Source of the DNA: Clostridiaceae bacterium
GTDB lineage: Bacteria; Bacillota; Clostridia; Acetivibrionales; Acetivibrionaceae
Length of the DNA: 64,000 bases
Direction of reading: 5' to 3'
Assembly: GCA_012519925.1 (NCBI GenBank)
Contig: JAAYPF010000116.1
Location: forward strand, 1-64,000
A model generated the notes under the pieces. That model saw only the letters and a program-made list of their open reading frames with translations, was not told the origin of the DNA and ran no database searches. Each line of letters starts with the position of its first letter. Position 1 is the stretch's first letter. Shown here piece after piece: positions 16,256 through 57,836 of this stretch. A program made the position numbers and the translations under genes.

Positions 16256-16518
16256 TTTTTATCCTCCTTTTGTCCGCTTATTCATTAAGTTGTATCAAGT
16301 TTTCCTATTTCGCATAATTATGAGCTTAAAGTCATTACAAAGTTTCTTATAGTCACCAAATTCAAATACATAAAATACTTTTAAAAATATATTCATCATT
16401 TTTAGCTCATGATTGTGAAATATTGTAATTATACTCATTCTTTATTTCCCAAACTTCTCCTTTAATTTTCTATTTTATAGCGAAAAAAATTTACAATCCT
16501 ATCTCAAAACTAGCTAAG

Positions 16519-16583
16519 TAAAAACTACAGGGCATCGAGCCCCGTAGTTTTTGCCTCTTTCACTTCGTTCGAAAGATGCGTAA
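16519..16583 (-). repeat. F1 repeat unit (locus a, copy distal to HPr)
   Basis: TAAAAACTACAGGGCATCGAGCCCCGTAGTTTTTGCCTCTTTCACTTCGTTCGAAAGATGCGTAA. Confidence 0.9.
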
Positions 16584-16648
16584 TAAAAACTACAGGACAT
16601 CGAGTCACTTCGTTTTTGCCTCTTTCACTTCGTTCGAAAGATGCATAA
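16584..16648 (-). repeat. F1 repeat unit (locus a, copy next to HPr terminator); 65-bp tandem duplicate
   Basis: TAAAAACTACAGGACATCGAGTCACTTCGTTTTTGCCTCTTTCACTTCGTTCGAAAGATGCATAA. Confidence 0.9.
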
Positions 16649-16649
16649 A

Positions 16650-16680
16650 ACAAAAAGAACCGCTAATAAAGAAACGGTCC
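16650..16680 (-). terminator. Intrinsic terminator of the HPr gene
   Basis: Minus strand GGACCG...CGGTTC followed by TTTTTGTTTT. Confidence 0.7.
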
Positions 16681-16720
16681 TCCCTTTTTATGTATATATA
16701 TTTTTTATACACCTTATAGA

Positions 16721-17956: not shown

Positions 17957-18013
17957 AACATATTGTAATGAAATTATATCTCATTTTTGCCCAAAAAACC
18001 AGCATAACTTATT

Positions 18014-18173
18014 TTAGGTGATTCCAAAAAAACAACTGGTCAATGGGTGTTTCAAAAAAGTTGATTTACATTTTTTGCGTTGCAAAATAATGTTCCTATG
18101 TTTGAAGCTCTATAGCTTCATTAATGGGTTTGAACCATATATATTGACTAACGAATTTTTTTGAAACACCTTA
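18014..18173 (+). repeat. F2 dispersed repeat, near full-length (~160 bp)
   Basis: TTAGGTGATTCCAAAAAAACAACTGGTCAATGGGTGTTTC ... TTTTTTTGAAACACCTTA. Confidence 0.9.
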
Positions 18174-18205
18174 GGCGATTTCAATATAATATTGAAATCG
18201 CCTAA
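18171..18205. repeat. 35-bp perfect palindrome adjacent to F2 end
   Basis: TTAGGCGATTTCAATAT-a-ATATTGAAATCGCCTAA, 17-bp arms. Confidence 0.85.
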
Positions 18206-28759: not shown

Positions 28760-28780
28760 AAACACACCTCCAAAAATCTA

Positions 28781-28916
28781 TAAGGTTATTTCAAAAAACA
28801 AAAACTCCGAGTCATCAAGCCCCACCGTTTTTGCCTCTTTCACTTCGTTCGAAAGAAGCGTAATCAAATCAATTTTTCCAAAGGATAATTGACCACCTGT
28901 TTTTTTTAAACACCTA
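28781..28916 (-). repeat. F2 dispersed repeat carrying a nested F1 element, between ribE and ribBA
   Basis: TAAGGTTATTTCAAAAAACA ... ATAATTGACCACCTGTTTTTTTTAAACACCTA with F1 core inside. Confidence 0.8.
28800..28863 (-). repeat. F1 repeat unit (locus b), nested in F2
   Basis: AAAAACTCCGAGTCATCAAGCCCCACCGTTTTTGCCTCTTTCACTTCGTTCGAAAGAAGCGTAA. Confidence 0.9.
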
Positions 28917-28917
28917 C

Positions 28918-29574
28918 CTAAGCAAATCCGTTTTTTCTTAAAAAATCAAGGGATATATCCCTGCATTTGTTATTTTCTTCTAAGTTATTGTGAAAGATCA
29001 GTTTTTCAATATACTTTCCGAGCATATCACATTCAATATTTATCTTACTTCCAACTTCTTTTGACCCTAAAGTCGTAACTCCAGCTGTAAGCGGTATAAG
29101 TGAAACTTTAAAACACTTCTCATCTATAAAAGCAACGGTTAGACTAGTACCATCTAATGCCACTGAACCTTTCATAACAATATATTTTAAGACCTCCCTG
29201 GTCGCTTCTATTGTTAGCCAAATTGCATTGTCCTCCTGCGTTTTATCAACTATCACGCCTGTACCGTCAATATGCCCAGATACAATATGTCCTCCAAATC
29301 GATCGGACAACCTCAATGCACGCTCAAGATTAACTTCATCTCCCACCTTAAGATTTCCCAATCCGGTTTTTCTCATTGTTTCTGGCATTACGTCAGCTGT
29401 AAATTCATCACTTCTTTTATTAACTACAGTAAGGCATATTCCGTTTACCGCAATGCTATCTCCTAGTTTTACATCGTCCATTATTTCATTACATTGTATT
29501 GAAAGCCTTATGGATTTGCTTCCGTGGACAATCCCTCTTACTTTTCCAACCTCTTCAATTATACCAGTAAACAT
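28918..29574 (-). CDS. ribE: Riboflavin synthase alpha chain
   Basis: MFTGIIEEVGKV, VNGICLTVV, GGHIVSGHIDGTG, VALDGTSLTV. Confidence 0.97.
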   Translation of the reverse strand: MFTGIIEEVGKVRGIVHGSKSIRLSIQCNEIMDDVKLGDSIAVNGICLTVVNKRSDEFTADVMPETMRKTGLGNLKVGDEVNLERALRLSDRFGGHIVSGHIDGTGVIVDKTQEDNAIWLTIEATREVLKYIVMKGSVALDGTSLTVAFIDEKCFKVSLIPLTAGVTTLGSKEVGSKINIECDMLGKYIEKLIFHNNLEENNKCRDISLDFLRKNGFA

Positions 29575-30916: not shown

Positions 30917-30950
30917 ATAATTTACCACTCACATAAGGAATAATAACTTA

Positions 30951-31100
30951 TCTTCTTCCATCCAGACTTTTTGTGTATATAGACCTAAACACAATATACT
31001 GTCGGCTCTGGAATTTGACCAGATCTGCCATTAGGCTCGCGGGCTTGCAAACATTTCAGTGCCTACCGCCGGTAAGGATTCTCACCTATCCCTGAAGATA
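30951..31100 (-). ncRNA. FMN riboswitch (RFN element) upstream of ribD
   Basis: Minus strand: TATCTTCAGGGATAGGTGAGAATCCTTACCGGCGGTA...AGCCCGCGAGCC...GAGCCGACAGT...AGTCTGGATGGAAGAAGATA, matching conserved RFN boxes. Confidence 0.95.
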
Positions 31101-31125
31101 ATATACTTAATTTCAATTTACATAG

Positions 31126-36727: not shown

Positions 36728-37002
36728 ATTTGTGCCTACCTCCCGACATAGATTCAGAAAAATGCTATTTCATTGTAAAAAAACAGCTATTTTTTTAATA
36801 AATTTCATTTGAATAAGATGTATTAAAATAAGTACATCAGTATAAAAAACAATTTTGTATTATGTTAAATAAATACATGTTGTATATAAATTCAATTTTT
36901 ATCATTAATAACACTATATATTTCTTTTAGTCATTTGTCAATTGTTCATTATATAGTACATTTGAATTATATGAATTTTTTTAGGTATTTTATCAAAAAA
37001 TA

Positions 37003-37161
37003 TTAGATTATTCCAAAAAAACAACTGTTCAAAGGATGTTTAATAAAAAGCCGATTTATATTTTTGCATTACAAAATAATGTTCCTCTATTTGAAGCTTT
37101 ATAGCTTCATTATTCGATTGAAACCATATATATTGAATAATGATTTTTTTAAAACACCTTA
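37003..37161 (+). repeat. F2 dispersed repeat, near full-length, between minC and minD
   Basis: TTAGATTATTCCAAAAAAACAACTGTTCAAAGGATGTTT ... GAAGCTTTATAGCTTC ... TTTTTTTAAAACACCTTA. Confidence 0.9.
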
Positions 37162-45428: not shown

Positions 45429-45471
45429 AAAATCTCGAAAGTAATATTTTGATTTTTACTTCGAGATTTTT
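45429..45471 (+). terminator. Intrinsic terminator of mecA
   Basis: AAAATCTCGAAaGTAA...TTACTTCGAGATTTTT. Confidence 0.75.
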
Positions 45472-45477
45472 ATTTAT

Positions 45478-45541
45478 TATGCTTCTTTCGAACGAAGTGA
45501 AATAGGCAAAAACGAAGGGGCTCGATGCATCTTCGTTTTTA
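45478..45541 (+). repeat. F1 repeat unit (locus c), immediately after the mecA terminator
   Basis: TATGCTTCTTTCGAACGAAGTGAAATAGGCAAAAACGAAGGGGCTCGATGCATCTTCGTTTTTA. Confidence 0.9.
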
Positions 45542-45569
45542 TTAATAAACATATAGTTCCACCTCATTA

Positions 45570-52547: not shown

Positions 52548-52703
52548 TTAGGTGTTTAAAAATAGTCCTTAATCAACATAGATAGTTCTAACCAAATAAT
52601 AAAGTAATAAAGCTTCAAACATAGGAACATTATTTTGCAAAGCAAAAATGTAAATCAGCTATTTTTGAGTGCCTAGCGGCCAGTTACTTTTTGGAATTAC
52701 CGT
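52548..52703 (-). repeat. F2 dispersed repeat, near full-length, between argJ and cheW
   Basis: TTAGGTGTTTAAAAATAG ... AAGCTTCAAACATAGGAACATTATTTTGCAAAGCAAAAATGTAAATC ... TTTTTGGAATTACC. Confidence 0.85.
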
Positions 52704-54258: not shown

Positions 54259-54447
54259 ATGCCCGACAAGACTCTTACATGCAAGGATTGTAATTCTGAG
54301 TTTGTATTTACTGAAGGTGAACAAGCATTTTATCAGGAAAAAGGATTCCAAAACGAACCCCAAAGATGTCCCTCATGCAGACAGGCAAAAAAGCAACAAA
54401 GAAGGAACTTTGGTGGAGGTAACAGAGATTTTAACAGCAAGTGGTAA
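54259..54447 (+). CDS. Small zinc-ribbon protein
   Basis: TCKDCNSEFVFTEGEQAFYQEKGFQNEPQRCPSCRQAKK; AAGGAGG RBS. Confidence 0.88.
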   Translation: MPDKTLTCKDCNSEFVFTEGEQAFYQEKGFQNEPQRCPSCRQAKKQQRRNFGGGNRDFNSKW

Positions 54448-54449
54448 GT

Positions 54450-54475
54450 AAAAGGGGCATTTAGCCCCTTTTTTA
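54450..54475 (+). terminator. Intrinsic terminator of zinc-ribbon gene
   Basis: AAAGGGGC / GCCCCTTT followed by TTTTT. Confidence 0.85.
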
Positions 54476-54541
54476 TTACGCTTCTTTCGAACGAAGTGAA
54501 AGAAACAAAAACGAAGGAGCTCGATGCCCCGTAGTCTTTTA
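54476..54541 (+). repeat. F1 repeat unit (locus d, copy 1)
   Basis: TTACGCTTCTTTCGAACGAAGTGAAAGAAACAAAAACGAAGGAGCTCGATGCCCCGTAGTCTTTTA. Confidence 0.9.
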
Positions 54542-54607
54542 TTACGCTCCTTTCGAATGAAGCGAAAGGAGCAAAAACGAAGGGGCTCGATGCCCTAGAG
54601 TTTTTTT
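54542..54607 (+). repeat. F1 repeat unit (locus d, copy 2), 66-bp tandem duplicate
   Basis: TTACGCTCCTTTCGAATGAAGCGAAAGGAGCAAAAACGAAGGGGCTCGATGCCCTAGAGTTTTTTT. Confidence 0.9.
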
Positions 54608-54992: not shown

Positions 54993-55066
54993 TTTTCACC
55001 CCCGCAATGTGACCTAAAAAATACAAGATAAAGAAAAAAACAAATCGCTCAATTTGTTTTTTTCAA

Positions 55067-55224
55067 TAAGGTGGTTCCAAAAAATAACTGGTCAATTACC
55101 CTTTAAAAATATAATATATACACTTTTGCTTAACAAAATAATATTCTTCAGTCTGAAGGCTTTTAGCTTCCATGATAGGCTTCATGACTTAATCATTATA
55201 CAGGTTATCTTTTGAAATGACCTA
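55067..55224 (+). repeat. F2 dispersed repeat, near full-length, between ytxH-like and ytxG-like genes
   Basis: TAAGGTGGTTCCAAAAAATAACTGGTCAATTACCC ... CTTTTGAAATGACCTA. Confidence 0.85.
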
Positions 55225-55241
55225 ATTAAACTATATTGCAA

Positions 55242-57589: not shown

Positions 57590-57659
57590 TAATAAAATCA
57601 CCCGGTCAGATGTCATCATAAAAATTAGCTTAATAAGCTTTACAGCTTAATTATTGTAT
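57590..57659 (+). repeat. Diverged F2 remnant adjoining F1 locus e
   Basis: TTAGATAACTAATAAAATCACCCGGTCAGATGTC... GCTTTACAGCTTAATTATTG resembles F2 internal GAAGCTTTATAGCTTCATTATT. Confidence 0.4.
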
Positions 57660-57697
57660 AGTTCTTGCCTCTTTTACTTCGTTCGAAAGAAGCGTAG
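57660..57697 (-). repeat. F1 repeat, partial (locus e)
   Basis: AGTTCTTGCCTCTTTTACTTCGTTCGAAAGAAGCGTAG. Confidence 0.8.
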
Positions 57698-57698
57698 A

Positions 57699-57738
57699 AA
57701 AAAAGAAGTGCGATTCTAAAAAAATCGCACTTCTTTTT
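57699..57738 (-). terminator. Intrinsic terminator downstream of the LiaF-like gene
   Basis: AAAAAGAAGTGCGATT / AATCGCACTTCTTTTTT. Confidence 0.85.
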
Positions 57739-57836
57739 TGTTTCTAATGCCCTTTGCTAAATTACATCACTACCAAATTTCATTGCTTTTGTGTTTATGT
57801 TAATTACCCTACACAAAATAGTATAGCATCCATTTG

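Follow-up and report, generated by a model that had tools for sequence, protein, structure and literature searches.

Group IIC introns are known to target transcription terminators (PMC7161350, citing Robart et al. 2007); they recognise the terminator stem-loop, and hairpin-TTTTTTATTTTTT is one of their in vitro substrates (PMC7161350). In IS200/IS605 elements, the cleavage site is paired by a short guide located just 5' of a hairpin; this site adjoins the element at its left end and terminates it at its right end (PMC6006769). Movement of short hairpin repeats in trans was proposed for REPINs, and REP sequences are tied to Y1 proteins (PMC3116915).

The ~65-bp non-coding repeat described here (E1) resembles group IIC introns in its location directly 3' of terminator stem-loops, its fixed polarity and its T-rich site (PMC7161350), whereas the introns represent another size class and contain a ribozyme and, in most cases, a reverse transcriptase. 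An earlier note on this DNA had set aside group II introns and integron attC sites because of their size, which is reasonable, and the target preference of group IIC introns mentioned there is a true analogy (PMC7161350). Compared by layout only, attC cassettes share with E1 the single polarity, a 3' hairpin and tandem arrays after hairpins; E1, however, contains no cassette gene. IS200/IS605 elements and their PATE-like derivatives likewise form no target-site duplication and insert in fixed polarity on the 3' side of a short motif; they carry subterminal hairpins with a guide just 5', and the family's resident members lie behind terminators. In contrast to these, E1 is gene-free, and the IS200-type elements resident in the family have hairpins other than those of E1. 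With REP/REPIN sequences and their RAYT (TnpA-REP) proteins, E1 has in common that it is short, intergenic, palindromic, high-copy and tandem-clustered, but it is composed of two unlike hairpins in direct order and has no GTAG tag. MITEs are also short, non-coding, multi-copy and intergenic, and some carry E1; the E1 consensus itself has no terminal inverted repeats, which were found only as the ends of host elements carrying E1. Literature searches, covering few subscription journals, retrieved no description of E1 or of a tiny terminator-targeting hairpin repeat, and to our knowledge terminator targeting by such a repeat has not been reported.

Structure and distribution of the E1 repeat

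The analysed window (64,000 nucleotides; contig JAAYPF010000116.1, positions 1 to 64,000) is part of a 3.9-Mb draft genome of a relative of Acetivibrio/Herbivorax (mecA best matches, 62–68 %). Seven E1 units were detected at five loci, bearing out the five loci with a shared two-hairpin repeat of the earlier note; the E1 core pattern was found 5 times in the window versus 0.01 times expected by chance from shuffles. The following features were identified:

54259-54447: gene of a 62-aa CxxC protein (direct reading)
54450..54474, plus strand: insertion target, the intrinsic terminator belonging to the gene of the 62-aa CxxC (zinc-ribbon-like) protein (AAAAGGGGC-ATTTA-GCCCCTTTTTT, direct reading)
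54475..54540, plus strand: E1 unit 1 of a tandem pair (CM R1, 80.5 bits)
54541..54607, plus strand: second E1 unit of the pair, adjoining unit 1 right after its terminal hairpin (CM R1, 89.7 bits)
45433..45475, plus strand: mecA terminator (AAATCTCGAAAGTAA..TTTACTTCGAGATTTTTATTT; gene, MecA PF05389)
45476..45542, plus strand: E1 unit after mecA (CM R1, 79.9 bits)
16652..16682, minus strand: terminator of the HPr gene (direct reading; gene, HPr PF00381)
16583..16649, minus strand: E1 unit 1 after HPr (CM R1, 87.3 bits)
16518..16584, minus strand: E1 unit 2 after HPr, tandem with period 65 (CM R1, 88.6 bits)
57699..57740, minus strand: terminator of the LiaF-like gene (GAAGTGCGATT..AATCGCACTTC and T tract; gene, PF09922)
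57618..57698, minus strand: degenerate E1 with intact H1, H2 replaced by other sequence ending TTTTTAT (CM R1, 39 bits, and reading)
28798..28864, minus strand: E1 unit embedded in a MITE-like repeat and lacking an upstream terminator (CM R1, 81.7 bits)
28779..28920, minus strand: putative MITE-like inverted-repeat element carrying the E1 of the fifth locus (ends TTAGGTG..TTT / GAAA..CCTTA)

Reading of the sequence shows a terminator directly upstream of E1 at four loci, as had been noted, and the names given to the neighbouring genes (MecA, HPr, LiaF-like) agree with the assignments listed. At the fifth locus, co-orientation with transcription was confirmed; this copy is located between the riboflavin synthase gene and the next co-directional gene. 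The copies at 18011-18190 and 37000-37155 served as the comparison by which identity and extent of the surrounding 28779-28920 element are predicted. A MITE-like family of ~150–190 bp, whose ends resemble TTAGGTG.TTTC / GAAACACCTTA, is present in the window at 18011-18190, 37000-37155, 52550-52664, 55063-55225 and 28779-28920. The riboflavin genes are preceded by an FMN riboswitch (30946-31103, minus strand), the same gene cluster containing the E1 of the fifth locus.

E1 is composed of two abutting hairpins, H1 being directly followed by H2 (consensus of 26 units, ATTACGCTTCTTTCGAACGAAGTGAAAGAGGCAAAAACGAAGGGGCTCGATGCCCCGTAGTTTTTAT). The stem arms of H1 read GCnTCTTTC and GAAAGAGGC; H2 reads AAAAAC...GGGGC-TCGAT-GCCCC...GTTTTT with TCGAT as loop, and resembles an intrinsic terminator in form whichever way it is read. 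Covariation support for this fold is modest (pair counts, 26 close copies), and H1 and H2 are foldable in most distant homologues tested.

The covariance-model search of genome and relatives envisaged in the earlier note yielded 148 matches at E ≤ 1 in the draft genome, ~130 of them strong-scoring, and at least 106, 102, 94, 90, 56 and 51 matches in six relatives of the same family, these being lower bounds since scoring was confined to 150 candidates. Across a class-wide sample of 291 genomes, E1 was found only in the source family and in three further genomes, the latter having divergent forms; in these forms the stem sequences are changed, while the two-hairpin fold and the TCGAT loop are kept. 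Neither plasmids nor viral contigs gave a match to E1, and in Rfam the window copies had weak sub-gathering matches only and none at the gathering score, in line with the previous impression that no known family is involved.

Placement behind terminators and empty orthologous sites

Placement was evaluated for first-in-array copies only (n=116), using a simple, self-made terminator scanner by which long loops are missed. The foot of the best terminator hairpin lies 0–14 nt upstream of E1 in 81 of the 116 copies, with a sharp peak at 3–5 nt, compared to 22 of 1888 random positions (1.2 %) under the same rule and 1 of 116 on the opposite strand, as seen from the right side of E1. The upstream gene is transcribed towards E1 in 88 of 116 cases (median distance from the stop codon, ~70 bp), and one copy is located inside a long ORF. 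Within an unbiased 800 kb of genome G008, 22 of 36 E1 left ends qualified versus 164 of 4000 random intergenic positions, and E1 occupies 15 of 289 terminator-like sites. By the strict rule, ~30 % of the first copies have no terminator; some of these reside inside inverted-repeat elements or behind hairpins missed by the scanner. The order terminator, then element, earlier held to apply always, is thus upheld as a strong bias and has to be reworded as "mostly" on the genome-wide scale. Biased orientation and the distance peak were found in place of the random orientation and lacking enrichment 3' of terminators that had been named beforehand as the contrary outcome. Selection against insertions elsewhere may sharpen the pattern.

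At the E1 borders, the target consists of T4-6, A or G, and TT, just 3' of the terminator hairpin. Since a hairpin precedes 80 of 100 E1 borders but only 74 of 353 (21 %) E1-free intergenic T4-8[AG]TT sites, the T tract alone does not account for the placement. The A–G correlation between left and right borders (p=0.006) includes tandem copies and was for this reason not counted as evidence of duplication.

Copy sets of E1 are near-identical within a species and species-specific. The genomes G012 and G008 form a close pair with flanks ~80–93 % identical; among eight G012 E1 loci with a G008 orthologue, two are occupied in both genomes, whereas at six, all with a full-length copy in G012, G008 has an empty site that retains the T tract and the terminator hairpin. 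A seventh empty site, for a full-length G012 copy (L126/L337), also has an intact terminator, and in the reverse case a 3'-truncated G008 copy faces an empty, terminator-bearing G012 site. E1 is therefore a mobile sequence that inserts where a terminator already existed, and the site-directed insertion suggested by the earlier note is thereby supported; the processing or termination role offered there as the other option may apply in addition. At L383/L400, the empty site reads GAAGAGTTTTATT and ATTCCGTTA on either side of the junction, the occupied site GAAGAGTTTTTATTT, then E1 ending in GAGCTTTT, then ATTCGTTAC; target-site duplication is absent. A 4-bp ATTT ambiguity remains at L379/L414. 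Apart from this ambiguity, E1 displays the traits of IS200/IS605 derivatives, i.e., no target-site duplication, location 3' of a fixed motif and single polarity. Behind its own mecA terminator, Acetivibrio mesophilus possesses an E1-like copy; divergence among the mecA orthologues of named genomes is too great for clean empty sites. The hairpin and T tract at the end of E1 constitute a new target, which explains the tandem arrays with a period of 65 bp. Copies of E1 and of a second repeat, F2, that are truncated at the 3' side retain the terminator-side end, which may be due to selection protecting the terminator or to truncated synthesis primed from the T tract.

Other elements at the same site

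F2 comprises ~124 bp and is unrelated to E1 in sequence. With a 124-nt query, 36 matches were obtained (18 at ≥94 % identity; e.g., G000:C31:9684-9807, loci L289-L318), nearly always directly behind a terminator and in the polarity of E1, the 3' end being GGGGCGTAGCCCCTTTTGTT. Four E1 copies are located directly behind the F2 terminal hairpin. Within the family, F2 is essentially limited to the source genome. Thirteen of the 36 matches end early on the 3' side and none is without the 5' side. Long elements with E1 or F2 ends were in no case gene-bearing; 3'-truncated copies were the only ones found.

By score, 9 of 10 loci of IS200-type Y1 elements (G002, G013, G008 and G005) are situated behind terminators, as is the tenth by eye; one of these elements directly follows an E1 copy (L326). 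Their ends (ACCACCCG..CGGGTGGT) are unlike the E1 hairpins, and no E1-like ends were detected in these resident elements, a 16.5-bit match representing an internal H1-like hairpin only. The IS200-type element of G002, for which nine equal-scoring transposase genes were recorded, has a length of 756 bp and lies behind terminators (L242, L249, L255, L261, L265); its internal hairpin GGCTTGAACGAAGTGAAAGCC has a 14-nt core identical to H1 of E1.

An element of ~315 bp with inverted ends in the source genome carries an E1 copy without terminator. In G028, a distant Clostridia genome, an E1-like two-hairpin module was observed in two different larger inverted-repeat elements (L319, L328, L333; L322, L324). 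RAYT genes of E1-bearing genomes adjoin GGGACGGTTCT repeats and not E1: eight RAYT-like loci were examined for association and one E1 was found, ~0.9 kb from the RAYT gene (G010). RAYT-like transposases of 255–291 aa (L257, L247, L264, L267) adjoin GGGACGGTTCT / AGAACCGTCCCC repeats that are separate from E1.

Mode of insertion and alternative explanations

E1 is probably a short non-autonomous mobile element which, in fixed orientation, enters the T tract 3' of terminator hairpins. Insertion proceeds one way, at the motif T4-6, A or G, TT behind the hairpin, presumably on the sense strand in single-stranded form; here the terminator would fold as a hairpin and the T tract would be cut. H2 at the 3' end rebuilds the target, allowing a further E1, F2 or IS200-type element to land behind, and the site at the rear of terminators would represent a safe haven, genes being spared and a second terminator added. 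The leading guess, put forward tentatively, is that an IS200/IS605-type Y1 (HUH) transposase catalyses this reaction in trans: E1 has a guide-like layout (AAAAAC-H2-GTTTTTATT, A-rich 5' and T-rich 3' of H2, matching the guide/cleavage layout of IS200/IS605), and the resident IS200-type elements have the same target. No autonomous element with E1 ends was found, Y1 genes do not correlate with E1 copy number, and two genomes with at least 56 and 102 E1 matches (G001 and G012, the latter 87 % complete) gave no Y1 match. Possibly, although this is rather doubtful, E1 and F2 use a general route open to any DNA with a terminator-like hairpin at its end, which would insert behind any terminator without a transposase of its own, via an unrecognised single-strand enzyme with hairpin plus T tract as attachment site or via polymerase template switching at terminator hairpins.

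That terminators are struck solely for a T-rich motif, the hairpin being irrelevant, appears unlikely: T4-6[AG]TT is indeed common to the borders, but the hairpin excess at occupied over unoccupied sites (80 % versus 21 %) speaks against it, and survival bias could explain part of this difference. Enzyme-free spread, in which a DNA polymerase stalled at the terminator hairpin switches template via T-tract microhomology, copies E1 and returns at the E1 hairpin and T tract, would account for the short T-tract sequence shared by both borders, the lack of a clear target-site duplication (L383), truncation confined to the 3' side (F2, 13 of 36 versus 0 at 5'), the alike behaviour of two unrelated elements and the lack of a correlated transposase. 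More than 100 clean copies, however, require an efficient process, selection protecting the upstream terminator could equally cause the truncation bias, and such events are, as far as we know, rare in bacteria, making this route quite improbable.

Equally improbable is movement through a reverse transcriptase, either of a group IIC intron-like element or of another retroelement, copying an H2-ended RNA or an antisense RNA into the T tract behind terminators. Group IIC introns use the same kind of site (PMC7161350), and 3'-truncated copies with intact terminator-side ends are expected if the T tract primes synthesis; on the other hand, the truncated end is wrong for reverse transcription of sense RNA, the 65 nt of E1 hold no ribozyme or other intron domains, and no RVT_1 match was obtained in G009 and G010 despite at least 51 and 90 E1 matches, RVT_1 and E1 copy number being uncorrelated. 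Very unlikely is a functional host part, such as a backup terminator or a signal for RNA 3'-end processing, retained behind terminators by selection rather than by targeting. The terminator-like form of H2 both ways, the position 3' of genes and the presence of the fold in distant families would agree with it; against it stand the empty orthologous sites, the near-identical, species-specific copy sets, nesting with F2 and IS200, the copies within inverted-repeat elements, and the small share of terminator-like sites occupied in G008.

Judged from sequence comparison, E1 would thus represent a non-autonomous mobile repeat, and terminator targeting by so small a hairpin repeat appears to be undescribed. 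IS200-type elements and no fewer than two short repeats unrelated to each other converge on one safe haven in a single bacterial family, in which sister species hold the empty sites. E1 may therefore serve as a tractable system for studying what moves REP-like repeats and how mobile DNA finds harmless sites, and for asking whether stacked terminators alter gene expression.
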